Shown here one piece after another: positions 3,981 to 62,920 of a DNA stretch of 64,000 bases (position 1 is the stretch's first letter; every line of letters begins with the position of its first letter). Source of the stretch: Branchiostoma floridae (taxonomy: Eukaryota; Chordata; Leptocardii; Amphioxiformes; Branchiostomatidae); the NCBI RefSeq assembly GCF_000003815.2, contig NC_049997.1, forward strand, positions 9,511,060 to 9,575,059, in the 5' to 3' direction. The position numbers and the translations under genes were made by a program. The notes beneath the pieces are model-generated. The model saw nothing but the letters and a program-made list of their open reading frames with translations, had not been told where the DNA came from and made no database searches.

Positions 3981-6900
3981 CTAGTCCATGAATTTTCTGT
4001 TGGGGTTGGATCCGAATAACGTTGTCCGGATTTCTGGCATCATCTGGAGAAATTGTGAAGAGAAAACACAAGGGAATACTTAGTAGAGTTCCTAGTAGTG
4101 TTCAGACAAAATATTTTTTGTGTATCATCAATATCAGTGTTAAAATTTGAAAGTAGTTTGAATGTAGAAACTTGTCTGTGGTTTCGGTAGACAGGTGCTA
4201 ACTATAGACAGCTATTATCCAGGTACGTCAAAAAGTGGATATAATAACGTGGTCTTTATGCATGCAGCAGTTGTCACTGGTACAGGTTTAACTGCATAAT
4301 CCATCATTGATACTGTTTCCATATCATCATTAATTCCTACTAGTGACTACAGTAATACAAAAATAGGCATCAATACCTGAAGAGGAAGCCATGAAAAAAG
4401 AGGTAAGGGTAACAAATAAACAAACAAATAAACAAACAAACCTGTGTACTCATCATCTCCAGTCGACTCTCCAGTGTGTTGGTCACCTTGATTCTGTTGT
4501 TGGGAGAGAGAAACTCGATTCCTCCAGACCTAAGGAAACCGAAAACAAATTTTGTTTATAATCAAAAGATAGGATTTCAGCTGTTTTCTATATTTATCTT
4601 TAGAGTCGAGTTTTACTCAAGACAACCAGTTAATCTTCCTGAAAGCTGATGCATGACAGGCATTGAAACGTCAGCAGGTGAGATTAACTGCTTGAGTAAA
4701 AGAGAACTCTACTCTACCTACCAACCTGATGAAATTATTTTTGAGAGTTTATCTCTTTCGTTGTATTAGCTACAAAGTTCAGTTCAGTTAGCAACAAAAC
4801 CTTAAGGGAAAAGCAAATAAACTGTAGAACTGCAAGACTACAGAAATCTACTCTCTTCAGATAAAGATTTCTCTTATTGTGTACATGTGAGTTATGTGTA
4901 GAAATCTTGACCTGCAAATATCTTAACAATTAAACTTGGAAAGTTAAAGCAATGTCAATCACAGGAAAAGCATAAGTCTACTCACACATCCGAGCCCAGG
5001 AAGTTCTGTTCATCTACGGTGATTTTGCAGTCCTTTTTGGTGAGCCCCTTGTAGGTAGTGATCACCTGAGGTGTCAAGTCCTGGAGAGGAATAGAGTACA
5101 GAGGAAATTTAGTTTTTGTTCAATTTGAATTTCATGTGGATAGAAGGTGAAGAAAAGAAATAGGGTAAGTGAGCTGAATACAGAAGATTAAAAAAAAAAG
5201 ATTTTATGATCTAAAAGTTCCAAGACAGAAACAAGAAAATGTAAAGAATGGAGGAGGCAGGGAAAGACCGATAAGAAAACAAGAAAAAGGAAACTGGCAT
5301 GTATATGGAAGAATGAGGGAGGGAAAGAGGCAAGTGAAAAGAAAAGTAGCTTCATGATACTCACCTTGACGAGTTTGACGTCCACCTGTCGACATCTGAG
5401 CGTGACGGCTGGCTCGAGCAGCTGACACAGGCTCTGCACCATCAGCCCCTCCATGACCTTGCGGTACTTCACGGGGTTCTTGGTGACCTCGCCCAGCCTC
5501 TGCCGACAATCCTCCAGGATGCTCTGCTGGGAGAAACGGACAGCAACACAGGCACCAAGGTTACACCATAGCTTGGACATGTACTACACTACAGTATGTA
5601 TCCTTATTCAGCAACACAGGCACCAAGGTTACACCATAGCTTGGACATATACTACACTACAGTATGTACCCTTATTCAGCAACACAGGCACCAAGGTTAC
5701 ACCATAGCTTGGACATATACTACACTACAGTATGTACCCTTATTCAGCAACACAGGCACCAAGATTACACCATAGCTTGGACATGTACTACACTACAGTA
5801 TGTACCCTTATTCAGCAACACAGGCACCAAGGTTACACCATAGCTTGGACATGTACTGCACTACAGTATGTACCCTTATTCAGCAACAACAGGCACCAAC
5901 AGACCAAGGTTACACCGCAGCTTGGAAATACATCACGGTGTACACGTATTGAACACTTATGTGCCCAAGGCAAGAATTTCTCCAATGTTTCAACATTTCA
6001 ATGTTGGGATGGAAAAATATTAGACAATTCTCTTTAGAGGAGAAAAATCACAATTTAGTGAGATTTTCATCAGGTCATCAAGAATGCATAGAAACTGATG
6101 AAGCCATCCATTCAAAATATGCTGCTGGTAATGCATGAAATTGTGTTTTAGGGCGTAAAGAAGTACAATATTTTCATTGGATGCCTGCATATTAAGGAAT
6201 GTGTAACTGATACCCATAAACCAACCAACCTTTATATGATCTTCTCTGGCCNNNNNNNNNNNNNNNNNNNNNNNNNNNNNNNNNNNNNNNNNNNNNNNNN
6301 NNNNNNNNNNNNNNNNNNNNNNNNNNNNNNNNNNNNNNNNNNNNNNNNNNNNNNNNNNNNNNNNNNNNNNNNNNNNNNNNNNNNNNNNNNNNNNNNNNNN
6401 NNNNNNNNNNNNNNNNNNNNNNNNNNNNNNNNNNNNNNNNNNNNNNNNNNNNNNNNNNNNNNNNNNNNNNNNNNNNNNNNNNNNNNNNNNNNNNNNNNNN
6501 NNNNNNNNNNNNNNNNNNNNNNNNNNNNNNNNNNNNNNNNNNNNNNNNNNNNNNNNNNNNNNNNNNNNNNNNNNNNNNNNNNNNNNNNNNNNNNNNNNNN
6601 NNNNNNNNNNNNNNNNNNNNNNNNNNNNNNNNNNNNNNNNNNNNNNNNNNNNNNNNNNNNNNNNNNNNNNNNNNNNNNNNNNNNNNNNNNNNNNNNNNNN
6701 NNNNNNNNNNNNNNNNNNNNNNNNNNNNNNNNNNNNNNNNNNNNNNNNNNNNNNNNNNNNNNNNNNNNNNNNNNNNNNNNNNNNNNNNNNNNNNNNNNNN
6801 NNNNNNNNNNNNNNNNNNNNNNNNNNNNNNNNNNNNNNNNNNNNNNNNNNNNNNNNNNNGGGGAGAAATGATGCAGCTGCGCTCCGTCTCCAGGCCTTTA

Positions 6901-8567
6901 CCGTTTACGTTTAAGTTTACGTGACTCTGAAGACCCAAACCGCAAGTTTCCCTAAATAATTACCAGAAAATCTCCTTTCAAATAAGCGAATTAGTTTTAT
7001 AACGTTGCCAATATTCTTGGTGTCCCTCAGAAGACCTCTAGTAGCCTGGGTTTATTTTGCCAATTTTTTTTTTTTTTGCCAGCTGAAGGGGGAGGCGCGC
7101 GCCTGGCGCGCCTCCCCCTGGATCCGCGCGTGCAGCCTGTGAACAAACTGAGACGTGGGAACAAACTTGAAAACGCATGAAGACAAGCAGACCACATATA
7201 ATTCCTCTATGTTTACTTAGGTAAGTTACATAATGAACACAACTAGAAATGTTGCTCTTACATCTTCTTCTGCTGCTCCACTTGTTTCTCCTTCTTCTCG
7301 TAGAACTCCATGATCTTGACCCGCTGCATCTGGACCAGACGACCCTTCTCTATGTTAAACTCCTCCTCGGCCTGGAGAAAAGGGGCACAAGTTTTGTTTG
7401 TTTGTTTAATTCAAATCTCCATTAGTTTGAATAATACATAATGCTGTTACACTATTCTTTCTGGAGTCCATCATGAACATCACATAATCCAAAAGTGACT
7501 CAAGCAATAGATTTTGTAAATGGTTAGATGTTTCATGTGACATTAGCATCAACAGTTCCTTTTCTCAGTGATTGAGCCAGAAAAGGAAGGATGCTACCTG
7601 AAACATCTGACCATTCACAATTCAATCCATCAAGTTGCTTTTGTCACTTTTAAACATTTACCTCATCACCTAGCTGTCTAGCCTTCATCAATGTATAAAC
7701 ATCTTCGTATTAAGAAACACATTCACATTTTAGATTACCAACTGGCTGAAGTCTAAATTTTGCTATTGGATCCAACTAAATTAGACATGAATGGACATAC
7801 TTCCATGAAATGCTATAGCTATGATATCAAATCATGCAAAAAAAACACTTTTTTCTTAAGTTTCATAAATTTTCCGACTCTTGTCTTACCTTTGCATCTA
7901 TCTCCTCTGCCTTCTCATTGGCCTCCTGCTCAATGAAGGCCATCATGTGTTTGATCTGAAAAATAATCAATCTATCAAAATTCTGCTACATTATCTTACA
8001 ATACCATGGGGATATTTAACCTCCTTGATCTTCTTTTTCTTCGTGTCCTTGATCTTACGCAGCTGATATACCAATGAAATTTATATCTATACCCCAAGGA
8101 CGTTACATGATGTAACGTCCTTGTATACCCTAAGAGGTGACCGTCAAAGCCTATGAAACTATAATTACCAAATCTATCACGCTCTTTGTGCCATTTATAA
8201 TATTGTGATAAACAACACGTTCTGTGAATGGAATAGACAATACATGTGGGCGTGAATACACGAATTGATTTGTCACCTGGACTCAAATTGAAAATCTATT
8301 TTCTACGCCAAAAACCATATTCGTTCTGATCATCTAGATATGTGGACATAGAAGATGATGTCTATATCCCAATCTTCACAACAGCTGAGCTAAATCGCGT
8401 CCAAAATCTACAAATCCTAAAAAGAACTCAGAAAAATTATTTCCTGACCGGTGAAAAGGACGACCCTGCCCACCCCACCTTGTACGGCCGCAAAATGTCA
8501 CGCCATGAAAAACGTCAAAAATCGGAAAAATTACCTGTTTCTGAACATCTGCGTCACTTAGCGCCAT
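3981..8567 (-). CDS. ATP6V1E: V-type proton ATPase subunit E (multi-exon, one exon lost in the gap)
   Basis: Subunit E is a peripheral-stalk protein of the V1 sector that couples ATP hydrolysis to proton pumping in endosomes, lysosomes and secretory vesicles. Seven exons are readable on the minus strand: 8535-8567 (starts [11 protein letters not shown]), 7890-7955 ([20 protein letters not shown]), 7262-7371 ([12 protein letters not shown], then the Lys/Gln-rich coiled region), 5365-5523 (CRQRLGEV to VKLVK), 4986-5079, 4442-4529 and 3981-4043 (ends NPNRKFMD, stop). All junctions have GT/AG and compatible phases. The conserved segment after QQKK that normally reads like 'NQARLKVLRARDD' is absent between 7262 and 5523. 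That interval contains the 608-base gap, so one exon of about 60 bases should lie there. Expected full length is about 226 residues, as in the family. Identity is very secure from the N- and C-terminal signatures. Confidence 0.95.
4600..4718. mobile_element. Short foldback MITE in ATP6V1E intron
   Basis: Left arm 'gagttttactcaagacaacc...gttaatct' is the imperfect inverse of the right arm 'agattaactgcttgagtaaa'. The whole thing could fold into one hairpin. There is no coding potential. It lies in the intron between the exons at 4442-4529 and 4986-5079. Confidence 0.55.
5541..5940. repeat. 68-bp minisatellite, about 5-6 copies, beside an ATP6V1E splice acceptor
   Basis: Copies start at 5541, 5609, 5677, 5745 and 5813 with an exact 68-base period and only a few substitutions; a diverged copy starts at 5881. 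Each unit begins 'cagcaacacaggcaccaa' and ends 'cagtatgtacccttatt'. The array starts only about 15-18 bases upstream (in gene orientation) of the acceptor of the exon at 5365-5523, so it occupies the polypyrimidine and branch-point zone. The homogeneity suggests recent expansion. Confidence 0.9.
6252..6859. other. Assembly gap (608 Ns)
   Basis: All bases are N. The gap falls in an ATP6V1E intron interval and probably hides one coding exon of that gene. Reading frames that appear to run through it are artefacts. Confidence 1.
7087..7119. repeat. Perfect GC-rich 14-bp stem hairpin
   Basis: AGGGGGAGGCGCGC at 7087-7100 is followed by the five-base loop GCCTG and its exact inverse at 7106-7119. 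A T-run lies at about 7064-7078 just upstream. It is in an ATP6V1E intron about 230 bases from the assembly gap, and is much more GC-rich than the AT-rich surroundings. Confidence 0.9.
7488..7654. mobile_element. Foldback MITE in ATP6V1E intron
   Basis: The left arm 'aaaagtgactcaagcaatag' followed by 'gttagatgtttcatgt' is mirrored by the right arm 'cctgaaacatctgaccattc' followed by 'aagttgcttttgtcactttt'. The arms are about 60 bases with a short centre. The 'gatgtttca' core recurs elsewhere in the window. Confidence 0.65.
8096..8122. repeat. Near-perfect 27-bp palindrome
   Basis: AAGGACGTTACAT at 8096-8108, one central base, then ATGTAACGTCCTT at 8110-8122. It lies in the first ATP6V1E intron. 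It could be the centre of a degraded foldback element or a binding site; the flanks 'tatacccc' and 'gtataccc' extend the symmetry a little. Confidence 0.85.
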
Positions 8568-28149: not shown

Positions 28150-30666
28150 CAATGGGCAGCTCATTCCAATCACTTTAAAGTTTTTGATATGGTAAAAAAA
28201 ATGTAGAATTATGAAAAGTGGATACATTGCCAAATTTCTGTGCAATTGATGACTTCTTTACTTTGTCTTTCAACTTTTTAAATACATGTAGACTAGTTTA
28301 TGGTCAACATGTATATCAGAGTCCCTGTTCTTAAGTTTGTTGTAAGCAATGCATTCCAGTGATTCGATGTTTCCATTTTGTTGTAATGACCTGCATGCAA
28401 TGTATATTTTGCACAATATCAGGGAAAATGTGTAATATTCTGTATTATGGTTGACTGGGAGCAACTCAAATATGTTGTATCAGTGTCCAAGATGAGATTC
28501 ACTACTTTGAGAAAATTGTTCATACTTTGTACTAGACTTGTGAACCAATTATCTGATAAAAAGGGTGAAGTACAGTTTGTATGCTTCTGCATATTATGCC
28601 ATATGTAACAAGTACAGTGATACATTTACTAATCTCCATCAGACTGAGTGTAGGGTCAAAGACTATAGTAAGATATGTGTGTACATGTATGTTGAAGTAA
28701 CAGCAATGAATCCAAACAAGTAAGTAGTATTTTCAGTATATTTTTACAACCACTGTGACTGTGACAGCCGTAAGTGGACTAAACTTTCAGGTATGGGAAT
28801 CCATACATACATGTACATGTATATTCTAATTTCATGTTGCAACTGACACACCGTATTGATAAGAAACAAAAACGGTTAGATGTACATTTCTAAGTTACAA
28901 TGTATGTGATATCCTATTGCAGCAAATATTACTGAAATCAGCATTTTAAATTCCAGTACCCTAACAACCTGATGAAACTATTCATGCACTGGATCAGAGT
29001 TCTCTGGTAGACAACGAAGTACTTCTTATCTACCTACATTTTGGCAGCCTGCCTGCTAATTTCCTCAGAAGAAACTACAATCAATACAGCAAAATGTAGG
29101 CAGGTAAATGTAAGGTACAACTTGGTTGTGTAAAAGAAAACTGCAATATCCTTAAAAACAATTCTATGTTAGAAAGGACATGTTGCTGTCACACAGATTG
29201 TCTTGAGTTTCTTCAAAAATTGCACAACATCCTGTATATGTGGCAAAATCAAGAACTCAGGTTTAAAATTATTAAAGAAAGTCATGAGATATTGTATGTT
29301 GATTTGTTTTTCACTTTTTTTAAGAATAGATTAAGTTCACCATAGTAATGCTGTTAAAGTGACAAAATTGGATAGCTATGTTTACAGTATAGCATCTCAT
29401 ATCTGTTACAACAACCTCCAGGTATCATATGGCTTTGAAAGCTTACGAATACACCAACCTTTAGTTGCCTAAGGGTAATTACATATACAATATACATACA
29501 GTAGTGTATTGTATATAGGCCTATGCAAATGAACAATGACTAAAGAAACACACTCCTCAAGTGATTGTTACTTTTGTTTGAGCCAATTTTTCATCACTTC
29601 AAGTTGTACTTTTCCTGCAAAGTGCCCTGCAGCTGATGAGTATGAGATAAGAAATAAATTACTATTTGAAAGAATCTGTCTGTCATTCTTTACATTTGAT
29701 GTTCAGAATCTGTCCAATGGCAAGCTTGTGCAGAAGTCAGTCTGAATTTCATCATCACCATCTGTAACAATGATCATGACCTTACAGTAGCTGCAAAATA
29801 TTAACTTTGACAACAGGAAAGATTTCTAACAAAGTCAGGGCTTGTGACCTTTCCATCATATATAATTTATAGCAATATACAGTATGCATGTTTCATAATC
29901 AGACCTACATGTGTGTATGTTTGTTCATGCCGGCCTCGGGCAAACGCTCCAACCTCAAAAACAGTGCCTAGAAAATTTATGTGAACAATAAAGAATCATA
30001 GAATTCCCTTGAATCTCAATTCCACCACTAGTACGTTCATCACACACACAACACCCCCACCCCGAATACATGTCAGTGATGCTACTGTACAATGCAAAAT
30101 GCACTTGCAGGTTTTATGGAACTACTATATACAGCAAAGCCCGAACGTACAAGTACGTGTATGTCATTGAAAACTAGCTAGCTGTAATACAGAAGCACTT
30201 ATGGCTACAATGTTAACATCTATACACATAAGGCAGACATCAGACACACATACTGGTCCACTTGAGTATTACTAATCAGCTTTATATTGTACAAGTCCAC
30301 AGTTAATTATCATAACAAGTCACTGGTCTACAGTTACAGTTTAATACACCCCATCCAATCACACATCATTTACATGTACATGTACCTTTACAAAGCAGTT
30401 TAGTACTGCTACACTTTTCTTTCTTAAGACTAAGATTTCCAAATATCAGAAATCTCAACAAGTCAAAATATAACTATGTATAAATAAGCATTTGACATTT
30501 CATTTTTAAGTGCAATGAAGGTTTACTTAGCTAGTACAAATATTAGAAGCATTTTTAAGCTTCTTGGATGGTTAAATAGCAACAGAATGTCTCTGACCAG
30601 ACTCAAGGTGAAAAAATTGTTGAAATTAGCCAAATAGACAGTTTTAAAACGGTACTCCTCTGGCCA
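28150..30666. other. 3' UTR and intergenic sequence; no gene seen
   Basis: After the coiled-coil stop at 28149 the sequence is AT-rich with no convincing coding frame on either strand. Candidate AATAAA signals occur near 29654 and 29986. I cannot say where the 3' UTR ends. Confidence 0.4.
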
Positions 30667-30689
30667 GTTAACTATCTTTCCTGCGCTGT

Positions 30690-30760
30690 GATTGGCGATG
30701 CCTATATTAGGCGAAGACCCAATCCCATATAAAGGCAGGATAGACTATTCACATGCAGTT
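30690..30760 (+). promoter_or_regulatory. Core-promoter-like terminus: CCAAT boxes plus TATA box
   Basis: Within the conserved left end, ATTGG and CCAAT flank a small palindrome GCCTATATTAGGC. TATAAAG follows at 30728-30734, about 25-30 bases before 'ttcacatgcag'. The same block is preserved in the miniature copy at 37121. The arrangement predicts rightward RNA polymerase II transcription into the element. Confidence 0.5.
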
Positions 30761-32357
30761 TGACGGACTCCTCCCCACAGCCGGTTCGTCGACGCCATGG
30801 CTACGGAAACACAGAAGATCCACAGAAAGACCGCCAGCAGGTTTTCGGGGTGTAGAAGAGAGACCGAGTATTTACCTCGTTTGCGTTTACAGGGAGTATA
30901 AAATTCGAAGATTGCCCTTTTAGTGTCATGAAGATTTCGTATTTTATTTTGCTTTGTGAAACTGCGAGAAGTTGTTGCTGCGTAGGGACGAATGTGAGTT
31001 GTCTGCGTTTTTGCACGTGTATCGCTCTTTGTCATGCTGAGGTCCGTTCTTCTCGCAGACACTGGCGTGCCGGGCATTGTGTATGGGTTATGGAAGAAAG
31101 CATGCCTCACTGCGAGAATAGACGCTTATTTTGGGCGTTTGTTAGACATCACAGGTATATGCAGTACTGTCTGGCAGAACGTCGACGGAGAAGGCAAGTC
31201 ACACCGCCGGCACGGCCGACCCCAGCATGACTGACGCAGCAGCCTTGTGAATGAGCCGCACGTTCCATAGCAGAGCACCAGTAACACTGTTTTTGACAGT
31301 GAGACTCACCAGGGCAAGTCTGCGATATCTACAACCTTCTGAGAACGGGTAGGGAAACTTGCCGACAACAGAGAAGATAGAGTAGTTTCCTACGGGCGTA
31401 GGATAATTTTACAAGCCAAGCAGGTACGCAAGGTTTTGAGCTCGCCGCCATTTTTGGCGTCTTGTGGAATTTTCCATTTTGATTTGTCTTCCTACGCTGG
31501 CTGTTTTTCTAGTGGTCCCTCGGCTGTTTTCTTTCTTGTTCCTTCATGATTTTATTTTCCTGTTTTCCCCTTTTGTATGATTTTGGTGTGTTTTGTTGGT
31601 CAGCAACTATTCTGTCGTTCATTTCGTTTAGCGACTCAATTTGCATATGTTTGCGCATCGCACATGTTTCGCGTGCGCAGGTGTGAGTGATTCTATTTGG
31701 TAAAATAGGCTTGGTATAATTAATTTTGTGTTGTCTCATTTGAGTTAGGTATGTTGATACAGCTGAGCTACCGCTAGGGCTGCCGTTTACCCCGTCTTTT
31801 CGCCATAGGAGCCTTTGGGAAGCGGTACAACGTTGTTCCAGTTTCCGCACGCTCGGAGCAGAGACCGACCTTTTTTATCAAGAAAGAGTCGGAGGCTTCA
31901 ACTTATCACTGGTAGCTCTATGGGTGAGTTACGTTCTTTGAAAGGCTTTAGACAGTAATTGGTATAGTTTTTTGTCTGCCTATCACGTTTGTTGTTGTTG
32001 TTGTGGAAGGAGTTGAACGTATTGCCTTATTTTACGTATTTTCCTTTTGTTTGTTTTTTCTGTATATTTGCTTTGTTTAATTTTGAAGTTAGGTTCGGCG
32101 ATTCTGGGCATTGCATTTCGTGGACCAGCCAGCATTCAGCAACCCGAAAAGCTGAGGGACCAGGCCTCAAGACGCTCGGACAGCTGTCAACCACTGCCGC
32201 AGTTTTCCTAAGGTGTGTCCTATATCTCAGCTAGAGGTTGTTATCTTGTTGCTCGTCAGGTCGGCAGACAGCCTCGAGTTTGTAGCGAGATTTCAGGTGA
32301 TTTGATTTTTTTTTTTTTTTTTATGAGCCGATTTGCTTTTTGTTGGGTTTCTCGCTT

Positions 32358-34480
32358 GACAGGTTCTTGGACAACCCTAGGTAGAAAAAAAAAAAGTGTT
32401 TGCAGTTTTTTGTCTGGTTGGTGTCATGCAATAGTTTGTTGGACAATTGAACTGTTGGACAGTTTTTGTGTGCTGTTGTCGTACGGCATGCTGTAAACAA
32501 CCCCAGAGAGATAACAAGACTGCTGGAAAGTTTTGTTGTTGTTGTCATGCGACAGGTTGTTGGACAACCCCAGGTAAGTAACAAGACTGTTGGACAGTTT
32601 TGTTTGTAGTTGTCATGCGACAGGTTGTTGGACAACCCCAGGTAAGTAACAAGACTGTTGGACAGTTTTGTTTGTAGTTGTCATGCGACAGGTTGTTGGA
32701 CAACCCCAGGTAAGTAACAAGACTATTGGATAGTTTTGTTTGTGGATGGACGACGGGTTGTGGGATAGCACCAGGCAGGTAACAGGACTGTTGGACAGTT
32801 TTGTTTGTTGAGGTACGACAGGTTGTGGGACAACACCAGGCAAGTAACAAGACTGTTGGACAGTTTGATTTGTTAATGTACGACAGGCTGTAGGACGGCA
32901 CCAGGCAAGTAACAGGACTGTTGGACAGTTTGGTTTGTTGATGTATACGATAGGCTGTGGGACAGCACCAGGCAAGTAACAGGACTGTTGGACAGTTTTG
33001 TTTGTTGATGTGCGACAGGCTGTGGGACAGCACCAGGCAGGTAACAAGACTGTTGGACAGTTTTGTTTGTTGACGTACGACAGGCTGTGGGACAGCACCA
33101 GGCAGGTAACAAGACTGTTGGACAGTTTTGTTTGTTGATGTACGACAGGCTATGGGACGGCACCAGGCAAGTAACAGGACTGTCGGACAGTTTGTTTGTT
33201 GATGTACGACAGGTTGTGGGACAATACCAGGCAAGTAACAGGACTGTTGGACAGTTTGATTTGTTAATGTACGACAAGCTGTGGGACAGCACCAGGCAAG
33301 TAACAGGACTGTTGGACAGTTTGGTTCGTTGATGTACGACAGGCTGTGGGACAGCACCGGGCAAGTAACAGGACTGTTGGACAGTTTGGTTCGTTGATGT
33401 ACGACAAGCTGTGGGACAGCACCAGGCAAGTAACAGGACTGTTGGACAGTTTGGTTCGTTGATGTACGACAGGCTGTGGGACAGCACTAGGCAAGTAACA
33501 AGACTGTTGGACAGTTTGGTTTGTTGTCGTGCGACAGGCTGTGGGACAGCACCAGGCAGGTAACATGACTGTTGGACAGTTTGGTTTGTTGTCGTGCGAC
33601 AGGCAGTGAGACAACGCCAAGTAGAGTAACAACAGAGTTTTTTGTTTGCTGTTGTCGTATGACAGGTTGTTGGACAACCCCGGGTAGGTAACAAGACTGT
33701 TGGACAGTTTTGTTTGTTGTTGTCGTGCGACAGGTTGGTTAGACAACCCCAGAGAAGTAAAAAGGCTGCTCGACAGTTTTGTGACGCTGTGCTGTAGTAC
33801 GACAGATTGTTAAGCAACTCCAGGAAGCCAACAAGACTGTTGGACATTTTTTGTTTGTTGTTGTCGTGCGACAGGTTGTTAGACAACCCCAGAGAAGTAA
33901 AAAGGCTGTTAGACAGTTTTGTGGGTTGTCGTACGATAGATTGTTTAGCAACCCCAGGTAAGCAGCAAAACTGTTGGACATTTTTGTTTGTTGTTGTCGT
34001 GTGACAGGTTGTTAGACAACATCAGAGAATTAAAAAGGCTGTTAGATAGTTTTGTGTGTTGTTGTACGACAGATTGTTGAGTAACCCCAGGTAAGCAGCA
34101 AGACTGTTGGAAAGTTTTTGGACTAGAGAAGTAAAGAGACTGTTAGACAGTTTTCTGTTATCGCACGATACGTTGTTACAAATTTGTTACCCAGGTGTTA
34201 GTGGTTGGTCGCACGACAGGTTGTTTAGACAAGCCTAGGTAGGTAACATGGCTGGCGGACAGTTTTTTATTTTGTTTGTTATGCGACAAGTTGTGAGACA
34301 ACCACAGGTGGAGTTTAAGACTGAAGGACAATTTTTGTGTGATATGGAGCCGTACTATTAGTTATTGGACAGCTTCAGGCTGATAACAGGACTTGGTTTT
34401 CGTTCAGTTTGTTACTTGACAAGTCGAGGGACAACTCTAGGCTGATATAGTTGGTCGTGCGACAGGGCAGCCACATGTAG
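32358..34480. repeat. 65-68-bp hairpin minisatellite, about 30 copies
   Basis: Units begin 'gcgacaggttgttggacaac', then 'cccaggtaagtaacaagac', then 'tgttggacag' and a T/G-rich stretch. Starts are at 32551, 32619, 32687, 32752, 32817, 32882, 32949, 33014, 33079, 33144, 33208, 33273, 33338, 33403, 33468, 33533, 33598, 33661, 33729 and onwards. Periods are 68 at the left edge, mostly 65 in the homogeneous core, and irregular to the right. Each unit has two three-base-loop hairpins, GTTGT/ACAAC and CTGT/ACAG. The copies decay towards both ends. The long minus-strand Cys/Pro-rich frames across it are a by-product of missing stop codons. Confidence 0.9.
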
Positions 34481-37120
34481 GAAATGAGAATAGTACAGTT
34501 TGGCTGGCTGACTACGACAGGTTTTGGTTAACTTCGTGATGGTACATACCGAGACTGTCCGATACTTTGGTGAGATTTGTGGCATTGCAGATTGTTGATG
34601 GACCCTGTGTAGATAACGAGAACGGCAAGCAGTTTTTAACGCGAGTGAGAAAATATCTACAGAAGCACTGAAGTCGAGGCCGACAATTGTGAAGATTACG
34701 GTGTGCAATGTAGAGAATAGTACGTCGTGGATAGTTTTAGGACGGACAGCACAAGATTAAAAGTTGGCACTTATATACGTATAACTGCAAGGAGTTTGAA
34801 CTAATTACGAGTATCATTCGTTCGTTTTTCAACACGCTATTGTATCGCTATGATTCTTGGTACACGTACGTTTTCTTTGAAGTACAAGACACAGAGCAAC
34901 ATTGTCGTAGAACATTCGTAACCAAAGACGTATTCGTTAGGTGGTACAGGTTTTCAAGAGAAAGGATAGCTTCATCCTGAAGGACATGCAATATGATAAA
35001 TATGTTACAGGAAGCATTCAGTACAACGCGCGTGGGTGTGATGCGAGGACGTCTGAAAATACCACCTCAAGTTCAGCAACTTAGACCCACCAGCCAGCTG
35101 AGAAGTACACGCAGCAAACCATATGGGAGGACGGCGTACAGGCAGGGATGGTGGCCAAGCAAAGGGATCAAGAAGTTTAAAACTAGACTTAAAATTCAGA
35201 AACAGAGAGACAACAGCCCCAGAATTTTTTACTCTCTCGTACGTTCGAATTGTGACCTGAAGTTCCATTTTGCCTTAAAGTAACAGAAGATGTTAGAGGG
35301 CGTCTGTTAAACGCTTTCTTCGTAAAAAAAAAAAGAACATCTATACTGTCTTAAAGTTCACTGTAGGGATGACCACTGTATTTGCTTGTTTTTAATTAGA
35401 ACACATCAACGTCAGAAGTTGTCCAGGAAGTGACATGTTTTTCGTTGTAATGTTGAGAAACAACTAGTTATTAAATCGGTTTGCTGTTTTCGTCTGTCTC
35501 CATTTTCTTTACTTGGTAGTACGTTCCAGCGCTTATGGTTTATAAGTAATTTGAAAAGGAGCATGTTTAATATAAAGTGCCATGGATAAATACAGGTTCG
35601 TGTATCTTGGGTAGTAATTTGTTGATAACTTGACGAGGCACGAAAGTTAAAAGGCAGCAGTTATTTTGTCGTTTTATCGAAACATTTAGGCCAAAGTCTA
35701 ATTTTGCTTCGTAGGTAGATCTGACATGTTTAGCTGTAATGAGTCCAAAGATGACGCTATAAAAGTTTCAGGTTAATATAGCCAGTATTAAAAGGTCACT
35801 GCTTACTTTCTGTCAGCCTTTATTGGCACACACAGGGTTAAGGCTTATTTATAGAAGACATTAAGGTTTTGCTGCACATAAAATAAAATGTCTTCAATTT
35901 ATCACATATGCTTTCCAAGCTAGACCTAGTAATATAGGGTTGGCTACCCAGCGCAAAACGGCATTGGCCAAAACTGGTTTCGTCAAGTATGTATCAATTC
36001 AAGGGTTAGTGGATTTTCCAGAGAGGTTGTTATCAGTGAAAAGCTAGAACAGTAGTGAGGAGGACTCTAACACTTCAATACAGATTTCTTGTTTAGATAC
36101 AATTATCCCAATGTATGTGACGTAGCTTGGTTTGCTAAACGGCAGTTAAAACAAATATTTGAAACCGAATGTCGACATTTTTTTTGTTTATACCCGAGTT
36201 CTGATAGGGAGAAATGGGATTATATTGGGTATTTATTCTTGCAATATGTCTGGGCCATTTGTGTACGTCGAATTTGGAGAGATCCGTTATACGAAAGTTA
36301 CATCTGCTGCGATAATAGACCATGGTTACATACCGTGTCTATTCTTTTTATGGGGTTGGAAGTATGTTTGGAGTTTGCAACATCTGACAGAGGACATTTC
36401 TAGTAGTTTTTAGAAGAGGACCGCCGGCGATGCAAGAAATAAAAAGTATTAGACTGCACATTAGTTTTATTGTAGTTGATTCACTTCCAATAAGCAGGAC
36501 ACGAATAAAAGAATAATGAATGGAGGTTGGGGTAGAAAGGAATAGAGAATGATGGTGTGAAGAACTTGGCGGATGAGAGTGGGAGAAGTAAGGATGAGAG
36601 TGGGAGAGAACGATAGAGTCAAGGAAGGTTAAGATGAGATTGGGGATAGTAGGAGGTATGGATATTTAAGAACGATGGAGTGAAGGAAAGTTAGGATGAG
36701 ATTAGGAATAGTAGGAGGTATGCATATGTAAGAAGGAAGTATAGTAGCGCCAATATTGTATAGTGATTGTTATGGTAGGTCTGGACCACCACCCATATAA
36801 GTGGTAGAGTCCGCTAGTGGTTACGTCACGCACTGTGTGGTGCTGGTTGTTTACCATCATGGAACGGTTCCATAAGAAGTTGTCAATAGACTATGTTGAG
36901 TATGTTGAATATGCGTCCACTGTCGTCCTTGAGTATACACCGCACGCGTTCCCTATTAGCGTGGAGTCAGCGGTTGGTCTCCTAGAACCCACACACGCAC
37001 CAAGAAGCTTGGATGCCACGCAACTCAGGTAATGATACTAAAAAGAAGAGGCGCGACGGAAGGCACCACCCCATAGCTTCATATGGATGAGTCAATCACT
37101 GCGCAGAAAGAATAGGTAAC

Positions 37121-37437
37121 TATCTTTCCTGCGCTGTGATTGGCGATGCCTATATTAGGCGAAGACCCAATCCCATATAAAGGCAGGATAGACTATTCAC
37201 ATGCAGTTTGACGGACTCATCCGCACAGCCTGGAATCCGTCGAAGACGTGAACATGGGATAGAAGGAGTGGGACAAGGGAAAAGAGGTAGGCACGATGGA
37301 GCGCAGTTTTCTTTTTCGCCCGCCCACCCACCCACCCACTCAGTCTGGGGAATGTTATATGTATCACATCTTCGCGCGACTCCAGGCACCACCCCATAGC
37401 TTCATATGGATGAGTCAATCACTGCGCAGAAAGAATA
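37121..37437. mobile_element. 317-bp miniature derivative of the 6.4-kb element
   Basis: It keeps the 110-base left end and the 54-base right end of the larger element and replaces the interior with about 150 bases including a C-rich run of 'ccca' repeats. It is flanked on both sides by GGTAAC (37115-37120 and 37438-37443), which may be a 6-bp target duplication or part of the ends. It lies only about 50 bases beyond the polyadenylation signal of TBC1D15. Confidence 0.8.
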
Positions 37438-37487
37438 GGTAACAATTTTGACTATTTTCACACCATCCTATGCAGTCTGGTAGAGAC

Positions 37488-52078: not shown

Positions 52079-52216
52079 ACAACAACAATCTTTGTCGATG
52101 ATGTCATCTCTTGAAAGGCTCCAATAATACTTGTTTATTGTATTTTACTAATCAGGAATTTTTCCTCAATTTCTTATAGGTAAGGCCGGCTGTTACAGAC
52201 AGGAAAGGATATCGGA

Positions 52217-55200
52217 ATGACAGCAAAGATGTGGTTGATCACAGGGCTTTCGCTGCTAGTACTACTGAAGGTGGGACCGGCGTCAACACAGATGTCCCTC
52301 TATCCTCCGGAGAAGGCAAACTCCTTCTCCCGAGTGTGCCCTCAAGATTGCTTCTGCACGAACACACCCAAGCGACAGACCTTCTGTTATAACATGGAGT
52401 ACATGCCCATGGGCCTCAACCCACACACAACAGGACTCCTCATTTCTGACAGTTCCTTCACAACGATTCAAAACAATGCCTTCAAGGGTGTTCCCTACCT
52501 TGTTGAGATGAACATCACGGATAATCAAATTACAACCATTTATCCCGGTGCCTTCAATTTCCTAGAAATGCTTGAGAAGTTGGACCTATCGAACAACAAA
52601 CTTACAACATTTCCCCAAGAAGCTATAGCCGAGGTTGGCCAACAGCTCAAGTCTTTAAATGTAGGTGGTAACCCGATTGCAGAAAGTCTTACAGTTGGGT
52701 CCTTTAACAACATGGAAGCTCTTGAGGAACTCTATCTGTACAACATGAATCTAAGCATCATTGAAAATGGACTTCTTCAAAGACTGAAATCCTTAAAGGT
52801 CCTGGATCTCTCCAAGAACAACTTCAAATCTCTTCCAGAGGAAGCAATTAAAGGACTTGAGAATCTAACTGAGATCGTGATGTTTGGAAACCCTTTCGTC
52901 TGCGACAAAGCTGCATTGTGGCTCAAGGAATGGTTCGAGAAGGACCCACCAAAGATTGGACCTGGTCCCACCTGTATGGATCCTCCACGTTTGGCTGGAT
53001 ATGCTGCAGTTTCCCTTCCAACTGCAGTACTTTTGGAGGAGTACGAGATGGTGATAGCAGACTACACCACTCAGCCCGCTACAATAACTCCTCTACCAGA
53101 ATCATATACAGTCAGAGGTGTCATATGGAGGTGTCCAAGCACCACTGTCCTCACAGCAGAACAGTTTAGAGAGTGCGTTGAAATTGAGGAGCTTGACATC
53201 AGTGAAAACAACATTATTGACATTGAGCCTGGAGCATTCAGTACCCTCAGCAAGCTCAGAGTCCTCTACCTAAGAGATAACAAGCTAACGAAAATCAGGG
53301 AGTCGGTCCTGGAGGGTCTGACGAATCTTGAGGTTCTGGATGTATCTGGCAATCAGATCACTTCCCTGCCTACAAATATCAAAACGCTATTGCCAAAGTT
53401 AAAGTACATCGTGGGGTACGATAATCCGTGGTCCTGTGATTGCAACCTGGCTGTCAATTGGGACCTGTTGGCACACTTCTTCCACGAGAAACCTGCCGTC
53501 TGCTCTTCCCCACCAGAGTTGGCGGGTAAGTTGGTGAGGGAGGTTCCTAAAGAGTCGATGATCTGCACCCCTCCAGTCATCCTCTTTCTCAACGAATACA
53601 TAACCGTGAGGGAAGGCGGGGATGCTTTCCTGAACTGTAGAATATCTGGCCTTCCTGTTCCAACTGTCTGGTGGCAAACGCCTGATGGCGAGGTGGTTAC
53701 CACTGAGGAACCAGTTGGAAATAAGGAGGTCCTCGACAACGGGACCCTTTGGGTACACGGTGCCACAGGGAACGACGGTGGGAACTATGTCCCCATTGCA
53801 GACAATGGTGGTGGAAGGGCAAGAGGAAATACCACACTACGCGTCTGTCCTGAACATTGTCGCTGCCTGGATATTTTGTCCGTCCACTGCTTTCACGCTA
53901 ATATTTCTAAGATTCCATCGGACACGCGTCTCTTCTTGATGCTGGGCACTGACCTAAAAGAGGTACGCAAAGACCTATTCAAAGATTTGACGAACTTGGA
54001 AGAACTTGATCTCGACAATAATCAAATTACTGACATCGAAGTTGGAGCATTCGAGGACCTTTCCAAATTACGACTGCTGTTCTTGTATCGTAATGCATTA
54101 GAAAAGCTTCAGCCAGGCGTATTCAAGGGCATGATCAACCTCCAAATGATTTATTTGTCTTCCAACAACATCACAACAATAGAAGATGGAGCATTTGAAG
54201 GCCTACCGAAACTACTGTTAATCCAGCTTCATGAGAATCAAATTGAAGAGATTGGTGATGGTGCCTTGAAGGGACTTCCAACTCTCATCGACTTGGACCT
54301 CCACTTTAACAAACTCACAACCATCCCAGGGAAAGCGATCTCTTTGTTGTCAAACCTAACGCGGGTGCAACTCTTTGAAAACAGGATCATAATGGTCAAG
54401 GAACATGATTTTAAGGACTTGGAAAGACTGCAGATAATTTACTTACAAAACAATGACATCCAGGTGATTGAAAATGGTGCCTTTGCCAACCTTCCTGTCT
54501 TGCAGTGGTTGGATCTTTCTAATAACAAACTTGTAGTCATCCCTGCAGGTGTTTTCAAAGGACTTGATGCGCTGCAACACCTGGACTTGAGTAACAATGT
54601 CCTTATAACATTGCCTGCGTCCCTTAGGACAGAGCTACCATCCCTCAAGTTCGTAATCGGAGCCGGAAACCCCTGGCACTGTGACTGTAACATGATTCTT
54701 CTTCGCGGGTGGTTCGGTTACTCGGATATCCCACCACCTAAAATACCATTCGAGATTATATGTGACCCCCCCTATAGGCCTTATTATGAGCCTGACCCTA
54801 TCCTTGATGAGGAGTTCCTTCAGCATGCTGGTCGCCCACCATTCCGACCTGTATCGTACTATGGAGGGGGTGGCTCCCCATACAAAGAGAACAATGAGAT
54901 CAGTGTTCAAGATGATAGTTATGGCTATAGTCAACAATACCAGTATGGTAGTTATGACTACAATAATCTTTATCATAGTGCTGCGTACAGTGTTTATGGG
55001 CAAAAAAGGAAGAGGCGACAAGCACAAAGTAGACTCGCTACCTGTAAGACTCCTATGGAATTTGACAATCAAAACATCAATACCCTCCCCATCTCAAGTA
55101 TGGTCTGTGAGGCCATCCTCTTTGTCAAAAATAAGGTAGACGTCGTTATTGGGGATACTGCTGAACTCCCATGCGTTATTACCGAGGAGGTCGGTATTGG

Positions 55201-55417
55201 CAAGTTCTGGGTGACACCCCAAGGAGTCATGGTCAAGTTCGGTGACAGTGAGGGTAATGTAAGGGTTTCTGATGATGGAAGGCTTATAATCTACAGGGTG
55301 GCAGAAGAGGATGCAGGTGCATATGTATGCCTGGGAGGCACAGAACCTGTTATACACTTGCTATACTATGTGAGGCAAGGTCCTATACTACCACCTCCTC
55401 CTTCAGTCATTCCATAG
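52217..55417 (+). CDS. Secreted LRR-Ig protein A, intronless coding region
   Basis: The protein has 1066 residues with a signal peptide (WLITGLSLLVLLKVGPAS) and no transmembrane segment. Order: LRRNT (CPQDCFC, Cys41), about five LRRs, LRRCT (NPFVCDK, Cys229), a spacer, about three LRRs, LRRCT (NPWSCDCN, Cys407), an Ig domain (about 450-540), LRRNT (CPEHCRC, Cys544), about nine LRRs, an LRRCT-like cap (NPWHCDCN, Cys822), a Tyr/Gln/Asn-rich linker (about 880-930), a furin-like site KRKRR (to residue 934), a second Ig domain (about 990-1050) and a short Pro tail. The start at 52217 gives four extra residues; the second Met at 52229 (MWLITG) aligns with the paralogue start and may be used. An acceptor 'tttcttatag' at about 52179 suggests a 5' UTR intron. 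In the first Ig domain the F-strand cysteine is Pro526 (NYVPIADN), where the paralogue has NYVCIADN. The role is unknown; extracellular recognition or adhesion is inferred. Confidence 0.9.
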   Translation: MTAKMWLITGLSLLVLLKVGPASTQMSLYPPEKANSFSRVCPQDCFCTNTPKRQTFCYNMEYMPMGLNPHTTGLLISDSSFTTIQNNAFKGVPYLVEMNITDNQITTIYPGAFNFLEMLEKLDLSNNKLTTFPQEAIAEVGQQLKSLNVGGNPIAESLTVGSFNNMEALEELYLYNMNLSIIENGLLQRLKSLKVLDLSKNNFKSLPEEAIKGLENLTEIVMFGNPFVCDKAALWLKEWFEKDPPKIGPGPTCMDPPRLAGYAAVSLPTAVLLEEYEMVIADYTTQPATITPLPESYTVRGVIWRCPSTTVLTAEQFRECVEIEELDISENNIIDIEPGAFSTLSKLRVLYLRDNKLTKIRESVLEGLTNLEVLDVSGNQITSLPTNIKTLLPKLKYIVGYDNPWSCDCNLAVNWDLLAHFFHEKPAVCSSPPELAGKLVREVPKESMICTPPVILFLNEYITVREGGDAFLNCRISGLPVPTVWWQTPDGEVVTTEEPVGNKEVLDNGTLWVHGATGNDGGNYVPIADNGGGRARGNTTLRVCPEHCRCLDILSVHCFHANISKIPSDTRLFLMLGTDLKEVRKDLFKDLTNLEELDLDNNQITDIEVGAFEDLSKLRLLFLYRNALEKLQPGVFKGMINLQMIYLSSNNITTIEDGAFEGLPKLLLIQLHENQIEEIGDGALKGLPTLIDLDLHFNKLTTIPGKAISLLSNLTRVQLFENRIIMVKEHDFKDLERLQIIYLQNNDIQVIENGAFANLPVLQWLDLSNNKLVVIPAGVFKGLDALQHLDLSNNVLITLPASLRTELPSLKFVIGAGNPWHCDCNMILLRGWFGYSDIPPPKIPFEIICDPPYRPYYEPDPILDEEFLQHAGRPPFRPVSYYGGGGSPYKENNEISVQDDSYGYSQQYQYGSYDYNNLYHSAAYSVYGQKRKRRQAQSRLATCKTPMEFDNQNINTLPISSMVCEAILFVKNKVDVVIGDTAELPCVITEEVGIGKFWVTPQGVMVKFGDSEGNVRVSDDGRLIIYRVAEEDAGAYVCLGGTEPVIHLLYYVRQGPILPPPPSVIP

Positions 55418-59441: not shown

Positions 59442-59665
59442 GTAAATTAGTTATATTTCTTAGTGCTTGATTTCAGGATTTGTCTTTAGTTTTGTTCTTT
59501 TATTGTAACAAATCAAATTTTCAATATGCTATGCATCTTTATCACTCTAATTTGACAGTTTTAATCAAACTTGGCATTGGAATGTGAACTTTAATCATGC
59601 TTTTCTCACTCTATAGGGTGTGCAGACACAAGCAAAGGAAGGCCTGAAAACTCACAACTGCAACA

Positions 59666-62600
59666 ATGTGGATTGCAAAGTTTGTCCTGCTTGTCACCAT
59701 ACAGGTGGGCGTGACACAGGGTCAACCAGGGTGCCCTCAAAATTGCTTCTGCTACCCTAATAATGTTGCCTACTGTCGTAACTTGGACTCCATGCCTGTA
59801 CTTGGCCTGAGCCCTCGTACTAAAGGACTACTCGTCGCAGACAGTTCCTTCACGACTATTCCAAAGAATGCCTTCATGGGTCTTCCATATCTTGTAGAGT
59901 TGAACATCACAGAGACCCTTCTCACAAGTATTCACCCAGATGCCTTCAATGGGTTAAAGAAACTTCAACTGCTGGACCTGTCAAACAACAAACTCAAGGC
60001 CTTTCCTAAAGGAGCCATGGATAAAGTTGGGGCAAAGCTTAAGTCTCTAAACCTCGGTGGTAACTGGCTCGCAGGAAGTCTTACAGCAGAGTCCTTTAAA
60101 GGTATGGAGGCTCTTGAGGGACTCTATCTGTATAATACAAATTTTACAACAATCGAAGATGGGCTCTTTGCCAGTCTGAAGAAACTTTCAGTACTGGATC
60201 TCTCCAAAAACAACTTTGAATCTCTTCCTGAGGGAGCAATCAAGGGACTTGACAACTTGAAGGAAATTGTCATGTTTGGAAACCCTTTCACTTGTGACAA
60301 AGATGCATCCTGGCTTAGTGGTTGGATTGAGAAGAACCCGCCTGAGATCGGTGCTGGTCCCACCTGTATGGATCCTCCACGTTTTGCTGGGTATGCAGCA
60401 GCCGGACTTTCAAGTGAAGTACTTTCAGCTGAGTATAACCAGACAACCATTGACTGCACTGTTAAACCAACACCACCTCCAGATACCCTGAATGGGGAGG
60501 ATGATGGACGCCCTCCTCCTGTCAAAATCATCAAAGGTCTCATCTGGAAGTGTCCAAGCACTTACGTCCTCAAAGCAGGGCAGTTTGAGGAGTACACTGA
60601 CCTTGAGGAGCTGGACATCAGTGGCAATGGCATTATTGACATTGAACCTGGAGCATTCAGTTCCCTCAACAAGCTGAAGGTTCTCTACCTGAGCGAAAAC
60701 TCCATCAAGCGCATCAAACCATCAGTTATGAATGACCTGAAGAGTGTTGAGGTACTGGATGTGTCAGACAACAAGATGACATACCTTCCAGCTGATATCA
60801 AAGAGCGACTGCCAAAGATCAAGTTCATCGTAGGCTACAATAATCCATGGTCCTGTGACTGCAACCTGGCTGCCAACATGGACTTGATTGCACACTACTT
60901 CCATGAAATTCCTGCCATCTGTGCTGCTCCCCAAGAGTTGGAAGGTCGGGAAGTGCGAGAAGTTCCTGAAGAGGCAATGATCTGCACCCCTCCAGTCATC
61001 ACCTTCATTGATGAATATGTGACTGTGAAAGAAGGTGGTGATGCTTTCCTGAACTGTGAGATAACTGGCCTTCCCATTCCACCTGCACGGTGGAAAACAC
61101 CTGATGGCAAGGTTGTCACCATTGACGAACCAGTTGGAAATAAGGAAGTTCTGGACAATGGGACCCTTTGGATCAAGAATGCCGTAGCTGATGACGGTGG
61201 TAACTACGTGTGCATTGCTGACAATGGTGGTGGCGTAGATATGAGAAATGCCACACTGCGCGTTTGTCCCAGAGTTTGTCGATGTCTGGACATCTTGACA
61301 GTCCACTGCTTCGAAGCTGATATTTCAAAGATTCCAGCTGATACTCGTTTATTCCTAATGCTGGGTACTGACCTAGCTGAGGTAAAGAAGGACCTGTTCA
61401 AAGATTTGAAGGACTTGGAAGAGCTGGATCTGGACAATAATCAAATCACGGACATTGAAGTTGGATCATTTGACAGTCTGGAAAACTTACGTTTGCTGTT
61501 CCTGTACAGGAATGCTATAGAAAAACTATCATCTGGCTTATTCAAGGGCATGACTAATCTCCTACAGATCTATCTGTCCTCTAACAATATTACAACGATA
61601 GAGGATGGAGCATTTGAGGGACTTGAAAATCTACAGTTGATCCAGCTTCACGAGAATCATATTGAAGAGATTGGTGATGGTGCCTTCAAGGGACTTCCAA
61701 CTCTCATTGACTTGGACCTTCACCTTAACAACCTCACAGCCATCCCTGGGAAGGCCATCACATCGCTCAAAAACCTCAGGCGTGTGCAGCTTTTCGACAA
61801 CAAAATCAAGATGGTCAAGGAAGATGACTTCAAGGATTTGGAAAGCCTTCAGATGATCTATCTTCAGGACAATGAAATCCAGGTGGTTGAAAATGGTGCC
61901 TTTGCAAATCTGCCAGACTTGCAATGGTTGGACCTTTCAAACAATAAGATAGTAGTCATTCCTGCAGGTGTGTTCAAAGGACTTGATGCGCTGCAACGCC
62001 TGGACTTGAGCAACAATGCCCTCGTGACCTTACCTGCATCCCTCAGGACAGAGCTGCCATCCCTCAGGTTTGTAATTGCAGCTGGGAACCCCTGGCACTG
62101 CGACTGTAACATGATTCCTCTCCGAGGATGGTTCGGTTACTCACCCGATCAACCGCCTCCCCCGGGAGCAGGACCTGCCCAGGGGGACCCCCCTTTCCGG
62201 CCTTATTATGAGCCCGACCCCCTCCTCCTCTCCGAGTTCCTTGAGCACACTGGCCAGACACCCTTTCACCCTGTTGGGTACTACGCAGCCAGGAGAAGAC
62301 GCCAAGCGCCGGGCGGGTTTGCAACTTGCGCGACTCCGATAGCGTACGCCAACCAAGACACCAACACTATTCCCATCTCCAGCCTCATCTGCGAGGCCAT
62401 CCTCTTTGTCGAAAATGGGGCCGCTGTCCTCATCGGGGAGTCGGCGGAACTGCCTTGCAACATCTCCAAGGAGACCAGCATTGGCAAGTTCTGGGCAACA
62501 CCACAAGGAGCAGTGGTGAAGTTCGGAGGCAGCGTGAACAAGACGAAAGTGGCCGATGATGGCACCCTCACCATCGAGAAGGTGTCAGAGGATGACGCCG

Positions 62601-62920
62601 GGCCGTACGTGTGCGTGGGAGCAGAAGAACCCACCATATACTTCCTGAACTATGTAAGGGAAGTCACCACTCCACCACCTCCTCCTACCGAGCCACCAAA
62701 AGTAGAAGAAGAAGAAGAACCTGAACTGCCAGAAGAAGAAGAAGAACCCGGACCACCAGAAGAAGTGGAACCACCGCCGCGATTCCCACCACGAGGAGTC
62801 GACGAACCACTACCAACATTTCCCGATGGCGGACTACTGCCAGCACCCCCGGTTGGGATCCCGGACTTCCCAGATTTGCCCAGACCTCCACAACGACCAC
62901 CTTTCCGACCACGACCATAG
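59666..62920 (+). CDS. Secreted LRR-Ig protein B, intronless coding region
   Basis: The protein has 1084 residues and is a tandem paralogue of the gene at 52217 with the same domain order. Order: signal peptide (AKFVLLVTIQVGVTQG), LRRNT (CPQNCFC, Cys23), LRRs, LRRCT (Cys210), LRRs, LRRCT (NPWSCDCN, Cys397), Ig with both cysteines (Cys464 and Cys516), LRRNT (CPRVCRC, Cys534), about nine LRRs, LRRCT-like cap (Cys812), furin-like RRRR (to residue 879), second Ig, and a long C-terminal tail rich in Pro and Glu from about residue 1005. Gene A lacks that tail. The Tyr-rich linker of gene A is absent here. An acceptor 'cactctatag' at about 59617 suggests a 5' UTR intron. GC content rises clearly in the 3' third (about 62130-62900). 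No transmembrane segment was seen. Confidence 0.9.
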   Translation: MWIAKFVLLVTIQVGVTQGQPGCPQNCFCYPNNVAYCRNLDSMPVLGLSPRTKGLLVADSSFTTIPKNAFMGLPYLVELNITETLLTSIHPDAFNGLKKLQLLDLSNNKLKAFPKGAMDKVGAKLKSLNLGGNWLAGSLTAESFKGMEALEGLYLYNTNFTTIEDGLFASLKKLSVLDLSKNNFESLPEGAIKGLDNLKEIVMFGNPFTCDKDASWLSGWIEKNPPEIGAGPTCMDPPRFAGYAAAGLSSEVLSAEYNQTTIDCTVKPTPPPDTLNGEDDGRPPPVKIIKGLIWKCPSTYVLKAGQFEEYTDLEELDISGNGIIDIEPGAFSSLNKLKVLYLSENSIKRIKPSVMNDLKSVEVLDVSDNKMTYLPADIKERLPKIKFIVGYNNPWSCDCNLAANMDLIAHYFHEIPAICAAPQELEGREVREVPEEAMICTPPVITFIDEYVTVKEGGDAFLNCEITGLPIPPARWKTPDGKVVTIDEPVGNKEVLDNGTLWIKNAVADDGGNYVCIADNGGGVDMRNATLRVCPRVCRCLDILTVHCFEADISKIPADTRLFLMLGTDLAEVKKDLFKDLKDLEELDLDNNQITDIEVGSFDSLENLRLLFLYRNAIEKLSSGLFKGMTNLLQIYLSSNNITTIEDGAFEGLENLQLIQLHENHIEEIGDGAFKGLPTLIDLDLHLNNLTAIPGKAITSLKNLRRVQLFDNKIKMVKEDDFKDLESLQMIYLQDNEIQVVENGAFANLPDLQWLDLSNNKIVVIPAGVFKGLDALQRLDLSNNALVTLPASLRTELPSLRFVIAAGNPWHCDCNMIPLRGWFGYSPDQPPPPGAGPAQGDPPFRPYYEPDPLLLSEFLEHTGQTPFHPVGYYAARRRRQAPGGFATCATPIAYANQDTNTIPISSLICEAILFVENGAAVLIGESAELPCNISKETSIGKFWATPQGAVVKFGGSVNKTKVADDGTLTIEKVSEDDAGPYVCVGAEEPTIYFLNYVREVTTPPPPPTEPPKVEEEEEPELPEEEEEPGPPEEVEPPPRFPPRGVDEPLPTFPDGGLLPAPPVGIPDFPDLPRPPQRPPFRPRP

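Follow-up and report, generated by a model that had tools for sequence, protein, structure and literature searches.

The 64,000-nucleotide stretch of the Branchiostoma floridae genome analysed here (NC_049997.1, positions 9,511,060–9,575,059; hereafter the window) contains a single mobile element of 6,771 bp, located at window positions 30673–37443 on the plus strand and organised in the order A1–interior–B1–A2–x–B2. A1 and A2 are copies of a left-end repeat, B1 and B2 copies of a right-end repeat, and x separates A2 from B2. The element is very probably a non-autonomous, non-coding split-direct-repeat retrotransposon, moved in trans by proteins of ALOG-type tyrosine-recombinase retrotransposons, which would place the family, left unnamed by a first-pass annotation of this DNA, among the non-coding derivatives of ALOG-type elements. 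That annotation had described a large unit beside a separate miniature derived from it by internal deletion. Its start, 30673, stands; its end moves from 37437 to 37443, and the supposed neighbour, a 323-bp part, is the 3′ terminus (A2–x–B2) of the element itself; the two parts occur together in 18 of the 20 copies that were fetched whole from the genome.

The shared ends reported previously are real. A1 (30673–30770) and A2 (37121–37218) are identical over 98 nt, within a 117-nt match of 97% identity that begins at 30666 and 37114. B1 (37061–37120) and B2 (37384–37443) are identical over 60 nt, lie within a 76-nt match at 93% and both terminate in GTAAC; in the window and in family 1, to which it belongs, B1 is preceded by ACGGA and B2 by ACTCC. 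The segment x (37219–37383; tested as 37225–37386) shows 96.9–99.4% identity across the 18 complete fetched copies. The promoter-like CCAAT/TATA sequence noted earlier is also present in the left end, at 30719–30733 as read from the sequence; it includes a TATA-like box at 30728–30733, predicting a transcription start at about 30755–30760, and the TATA-like string is retained in variant copies as TATATAAGG, TAAATAAGG and TTTATAAGG.

Facing imperfect inverted arms, TTTCCTGCGCTGTGATTG and CTTTCTGCGCAGTGATTG, are located at the ends of the element. The arm motif has four matches in the window at up to three mismatches, compared with 0.15 expected, and none of 100 shuffles yielded four or more. 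At the B1–A2 junction (37093–37142) the arms are inverted on both sides of GTAAC, as in the sites of tyrosine recombinases; the junction letters, GAATAGGTAAC followed by TATC, are predicted to represent a copy of a circle junction and a putative tyrosine-recombinase site.

Genome-wide searches covered 513 Mb, and all genome counts are lower bounds. Searching with the left 228 bases (40 of 76 candidates scored) returned at least 31 long matches on many contigs, 14 of which, among the matches listed, are full-length at 100%. Nine further matches listed are confined to 110 bases of the left end: seven sit 6.2–6.7 kb downstream of a long match, one lies about 17 kb off, and for the last no partner was scored. 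The top rows of this left-end search supplied the 20 copies fetched whole, so that the conservation of A1 among them is partly a matter of choice; the B1–A2 junction and B2 were not selected for. Eighteen of them possess the complete order A1–interior–B1–A2–x–B2, as does the window copy, whereas the other two (L015 and L019) lack part of it in the stretch retrieved; element length varies from 6.5 to 8.1 kb. Neither flank of the window copy (472 and 456 nt) has a match in any of the 20, and by eye the left flanks are also unlike one another. These near-identical copies in unlike surroundings bear out the recent mobility proposed in the first-pass annotation. The two ends of one family copy, L015, at C11:10156150 and C11:10137261, are separated by about 19 kb; this copy has perhaps been interrupted by a further insertion.

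The right-end pattern occurs at no fewer than 84 genome sites at up to three mismatches, at least 65 of them exact (none for the reversed-pattern control), which contradicts any restriction of the ends to this locus. The pattern of the B1–A2 junction gave 42 rows, with none in the control, and 37 were judged true junctions: 33 belong to the window family and two to each of a second and a third family. Both further families show the order A1–interior–B1–A2–B2. Two B-like right ends (L045 and L046; C11:18322339 and C11:18332863), 10.5 kb apart, possess another terminus, GACGGGCATGA, with the same sequence after it, and are perhaps a duplicated relic or a different end type.

All 19 complete copies, the window's included, end in GAATAG-GTAAC, directly followed by host DNA. 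Since GTAAC is constant at all these right ends while the left flanks vary before TATC (with C at position −1 in 16 of 21), it belongs to the element. The first host base after GTAAC is T in 14 of the 19 copies and the third is T in 15, and the target thus loosely resembles the element's own junction GTAAC/TAT, being roughly AC/TRT (the slash marks the junction). Inspection of the flanks for a target-site duplication, as the first-pass annotation had proposed, revealed none in the junction letters of the 19 complete copies.

Mean interior diversity is 1.6% in the left arm (19 copies) and 1.4% in the right arm (18 copies, L010 being left out because of an insert). Most biallelic sites are singletons (71 of 83 on the left, 229 of 256 on the right). 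The four-gamete test is failed by 33 of 66 and 84 of 351 pairs of shared sites, respectively, suggesting that lineages may have recombined or that sites changed twice. No variable sites were found in 100 gap-free columns at 37100–37199 or in 46 columns at 37400–37445, compared with approximately 4–15 per 100 in most interior blocks. Two interior parts have observed/expected CpG ratios of 0.95 and 0.90; the values are 0.80 and 0.77 closer to the right end, 0.52 for the minisatellite described below, and 0.40 and 0.41 for the flanking window DNA; the elevated interior values fit the expectation for a young insertion. The copies are young, and their ends look constrained.

The two copies of each repeat change in concert. 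The A1/A2 tract was compared in 26 copies, the pairs L058/L036 and L055/L064 having been dropped for runs of N; it is identical in 22, and the remaining four (L029, L030, L060/L032 and L057/L066) carry 1, 1, 1 and 2 differences. The total distance between A1 and A2 of the same copy is 5, against a permutation mean of 140 (none of 10,000 permutations as low). Restricted to the 24 copies of family 1, the total is 3, where permutations average 21.9 (a value as low arose in 16 of 10,000). In some copies both repeats carry private variants: C19:16185530 differs from the window at five positions, with no difference between its A1 and A2, C6:25288200 differs at six with one internal difference, and the same behaviour is seen in L029 and L030 of family 2. 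Where compared, B1 and B2 are identical or differ once within a copy, and L042 and L043 have private variants common to both. Private variants shared in this way, by the two A repeats or by the two B repeats of a copy, suggest that each end is re-copied from its counterpart.

The limit of this re-copying is nearly fixed. In 23 of 26 copies the first base beyond the tract is where A1 and A2 cease to be identical; in L025, L029 and L030 this happens four bases later. A1 is followed by CTCCCC in family 1 (ATCCCC in L025) and by ATCCCC in family 2, and A2 is followed by ATCCGC in both. The tract ends some 10–15 nt past the transcription start predicted from the TATA box, a position that fits a cycle restoring an untranscribed left end from A2.

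The interior is apparently non-coding, as had been supposed from the lack of any recognisable enzyme. Of 67 open reading frames listed, 25 that lie outside the array were tested across copies: none is intact in all 18, and the seven of at least 100 aa are intact in 0–14. A Pfam scan of 10 window frames gave no match above the cut-off, the best being zf-His_Me_endon with an E-value of 0.026, and none to the ALOG domain. By these frame and Pfam tests, the window element has no conserved coding for reverse transcriptase, RNase H or tyrosine recombinase and is therefore non-autonomous; a hidden coding capacity was rejected on the same grounds. We take the frames of 178–382 aa on the minus strand of the array to arise from a 65-nt unit poor in stop codons. 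No matches came from Rfam or tRNA scans of the window.

The likely source of the missing proteins is suggested by a coding relative, L069 (C19:5437300–5447200), which possesses A1, B1, A2 and B2 with ends close to those of the window element. Its first ~500 nt are similar to A1 plus the 5′ leader of the latter (30673–31157; 67% over 504 nt, E = 2e-51 with permissive scoring, and 67% over 509 nt, E = 6e-27 with default scoring). L069 encodes an ALOG domain (PF04852; E = 3.6e-23, 82.5 bits against a cut-off of 26.6) and a fragment of a tyrosine recombinase (Phage_integrase, PF00589; E = 2.3e-6, 27.9 bits against 27.1). A zinc knuckle falls under its cut-off (E = 0.0022, 18.4 bits against 20.8), a reverse transcriptase is indicated by a weak Ty3 match in a PDB search (E = 0.011), a zinc ribbon was recognised by eye, DZR scoring under its cut-off (E = 0.0072), and RNase H was likewise recognised only by eye. 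ALOG domains were detected at 36 loci of this genome and in none of 14 control genomes. As the domain has no match in the 10 window frames scanned but is present in L069 and at these 36 loci, the window element is to be regarded as a derivative and not as a coding member.

Two of the ALOG loci, C16:4869816 and C17:12510753, have equal scores (97.5 bits) and equal open-frame lengths (531 aa) and perhaps represent a recent duplicate of a coding element. L072 starts about 0.8 kb downstream of an ALOG locus with an open frame and contains two 88-nt repeats (99% identity) separated by 434 nt; the first repeat abuts an inverted arm (26 nt, 88%), after which comes a TATA-like string. We read L072 as a putative B1–A2–x–B2 block of the same shape as that of the window element, composed of other letters. 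The CACTGCGC arm might, as a tentative lead only, be linked to YACTGTW, a putative motif of plant ALOG proteins that was not found in the open-access papers searched.

We propose that RNA polymerase II would start in A1, about 85 nt from the left end, and that the resulting RNA would extend across the hairpin array and on into B1, A2 and x. Its packaging and copying may then fall to Gag and reverse transcriptase borrowed from a coding element, the B1–A2 segment serving as an internal copy of the end-to-end junction and as the template from which the missing left (A) and right (B) termini would be restored, giving a circle. A tyrosine recombinase would bind the inverted arms around GTAAC and insert the circle at a loosely matching site (roughly AC/TRT) without target duplication. 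The AATAAA string that the first-pass annotation had pointed out is present near 36438; if this model is right, it is unfit as the 3′ end of the mobile transcript because B1–A2–x–B2 lies past it.

Several observations weigh against this interpretation. In one of the 26 copies compared, L057/L066, two differences in A1 are absent from A2, which we attribute to later mutation, and gene conversion within a copy could also equalise A1 and A2, though not obviously with limits common to families. Some standalone or older copies (L039, L040, L041, L048 and L049) terminate in GTTAA, GTGAC, ATAAC or GTAAA instead of GTAAC, read here as decay. Two short frames, one of 79 aa and the other of 52 aa, remain intact in 17 of the 18 copies. 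The coding relative L069 is broken, its recombinase catalytic fragment lying in a different frame from ALOG; its reverse transcriptase is weak by sequence, with no Pfam match, and the inactive adenine methylase domain of ALOG-type DIRS1-class retroposons found no match in the scanned L069 frames, possibly because of a deletion. By coordinate comparison with the right-end sites, L069 is the only one of the 36 ALOG loci less than 10 kb from a family-like right end, and no intact coding partner with matching ends was found among them. The second junction of the L069 family, L070 (C18:18091786), has no coding similarity to L069 in 9.9 kb.

The alternative that survives best, although improbable, is a Crypton-like tyrosine-recombinase DNA element, which would move as a DNA circle without reverse transcription while gene conversion kept A1 and A2 equal. 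It would account for the lack of a visible target duplication, the inverted arms around a short core and a target resembling that core. However, a circle excised from a donor site might bring along letters of that site as coupling sequences, whereas GTAAC is constant at every complete right end; the homogenised tracts stop at nearly the same place in two families, soon after the predicted transcription start, and the relative L069 combines a Gag-like zinc knuckle with a reverse-transcriptase match.

Less probable still is a class II DNA transposon with terminal inverted repeats, into whose target site an adjacent derivative, a miniature inverted-repeat transposable element, had inserted. The ends are indeed imperfectly inverted, a miniature with the same ends exists, and GTAAC at both right ends resembles a target duplication at first sight. 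The constancy of that apparent duplication across the 19 copies, against varying left flanks, led us to reject this explanation, as GTAAC is part of the element and no duplication of fixed length accompanies it. The joint occurrence of the large and small parts, the concerted change of A1/A2 and B1/B2 and the tyrosine-recombinase fragment of the coding relative also speak against it.

A non-autonomous long terminal repeat (LTR) retrotransposon with degenerate LTRs, similar to large retrotransposon derivatives, would share the long non-coding interior, a TATA sequence in the repeat and a purine-rich tract 5′ of the 3′ repeat block, which is located here at 36451–36750 (69–74% purine), likewise in L029 and L030, and by eye in L072. 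It is very improbable and was rejected, there being no identical LTR at both ends: the 5′ end consists of A alone and not of A–x–B, and no target duplication is visible. A tandemly duplicated, non-mobile host gene for a long non-coding RNA, despite its promoter-like start and the similar non-coding interior of all complete copies, hardly deserves consideration and was rejected given the dispersed left-end copies with flanks unlike the window's and the contrast in CpG between interior and flanks.

The interior of the element contains the structured minisatellite correctly recognised earlier, at 32512–34118, a 65-nt tandem repeat of about 24 units on the plus strand containing two short hairpin motifs, CTGT-TGG-ACAG and GTTGT-TGG-ACAAC or GCTGT-GGG-ACAGC. 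Exact motifs of each type number 12–23 in each of the 18 complete copies. Pairing was assessed in 22 of 26 array segments (21 distinct units), excluding the badly aligned 33764 and the irregular 33567, 34102 and 34138. The two hairpins are paired in 95.7% of cells against a shuffle mean of 93.4 (none of 500 as high), and at one pair 10 units have C-G while nine have U-A. Covariation is limited: two of ten pairs change on both sides, which 80 of 500 shuffles equal, 84 of 500 do so for further pair types, and the units are related. Segments of the array fold better than shuffled sequences (z = −5.0 and −2.4), as does the L069 array (−2.8).

The L069 repeat comprises only about five units, bearing two TTGGACA hairpins, against approximately 24 in the window element. 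It alternates CTGTTGGACAG- and GGTTGTTGGACAAC-like motifs, some of them degenerate, in the same manner as the 65-nt repeat; compared with a single window unit, it matches at 115 of 145 hairpin positions and at 108 of the 195 remaining ones. The second non-coding family (L029 and L030; 5.3–5.4 kb) resembles the window element solely at its ends and in the 3′ block, and its array is built from a different 42-nt repeat of about 25–30 units with a possible hairpin, ATGGG-ACAGG-CCCAT, seen by eye. Within the family-2 element L029, positions 7442–8527 contain frames that by eye resemble a non-LTR reverse transcriptase and are probably nested.

The presence of long arrays in two unrelated interiors suggests a selected role, most simply the recruitment of Gag or reverse transcriptase, and the longer array is perhaps an amplified packaging or template signal. 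Junctions of the non-coding window family number at least 33, compared with two of the coding family with like ends. We tentatively speculate, while considering it rather less than an even chance, that the array could act as a parasite's weapon, a multiplied recruitment signal for Gag or reverse transcriptase by which an RNA encoding no protein out-competes its helper, making the element, in a chordate, a hyperparasite of tyrosine-recombinase retrotransposons.

Although the 323-bp part in the window is no miniature, the first-pass annotation was right in principle that such forms exist. Standalone A2–x–B2 copies with flanks of their own occur at other loci, and seven were read: L035 and L038–L041, which are family 1-like, and L047 and L049 of family 2. 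L035 and L038 share private variants, hinting that miniatures may move as a lineage. A comparable relationship is described for SIRE of Trypanosoma cruzi, a standalone miniature corresponding to the A2–B2 of VIPER (PMC6681497); host and recombinase class differ there, and in amphioxus a long non-coding form with the full layout coexists with the miniatures (at least 33 junctions). Isolated AB repeats are likewise reported for Ngaro (PMC8547959).

Ngaro, PAT and VIPER are reported to have the order A1–interior–B1–A2–B2, A1 like A2, B1 like B2 and no visible target duplication (PMC4157794, PMC6681497, PMC8547959, PMC9210276, PMC3266345). The window element shows the same repeat layout, the same equality of A1 with A2 and of B1 with B2 within a copy and, by its junction letters, no target-site duplication. 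It differs in the absence of coding sequence and encoded enzymes, in the ~165-bp x that separates A2 from B2 and in that its nearest recombinase is of the ALOG type. L069 resembles the ALOG-type DIRS1-class retroposons described by Iyer and Aravind (2012; PMC3537659): it has an ALOG domain preceding a tyrosine-recombinase fragment, a zinc knuckle like that of Gag, a match to reverse transcriptase and a zinc ribbon. None of these domains is encoded by the window element, whose ends are split direct repeats with the spacer x. According to the same paper, ALOG-type elements occur in B. floridae and all metazoan copies were inferred to be inactive, whereas the near-identical copies described here argue for recent movement. 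DIRS1-like elements have been reported in this species (PMC3266345), and a Ngaro-like element lies beside the amphioxus VCBP2/5 cluster (PMC2632668). The latter is also a tyrosine-recombinase retrotransposon with split direct repeats in amphioxus; unlike the window element, it is coding. In the open-access literature we found no report of a non-coding family of this retrotransposon class, nor of non-autonomous elements of this class with such hairpin arrays.

Elsewhere in the window, positions 5541–5899 contain a 68-nt tandem repeat (5.3 copies, 97% matches), and two long open frames in tandem on the plus strand, at 52184–55417 and 59648–62920 (1,077 and 1,090 aa), are by eye of a similar leucine-rich-repeat type.

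To our knowledge, tyrosine-recombinase retrotransposons are poorly understood and their replication scheme is largely model-based. The nearly fixed limits of the re-copied tracts and the copy-specific changes found in both repeats make this family natural evidence for that scheme. The family also argues that ALOG-type elements worked recently in this genome, and it points to the DNA site expected for an ALOG-type recombinase, which bears on DNA binding by the plant ALOG transcription factors, which descend from the same domain. Finally, thanks to the long hairpin array, the idea that a non-coding parasite competes as a template is open to direct test.

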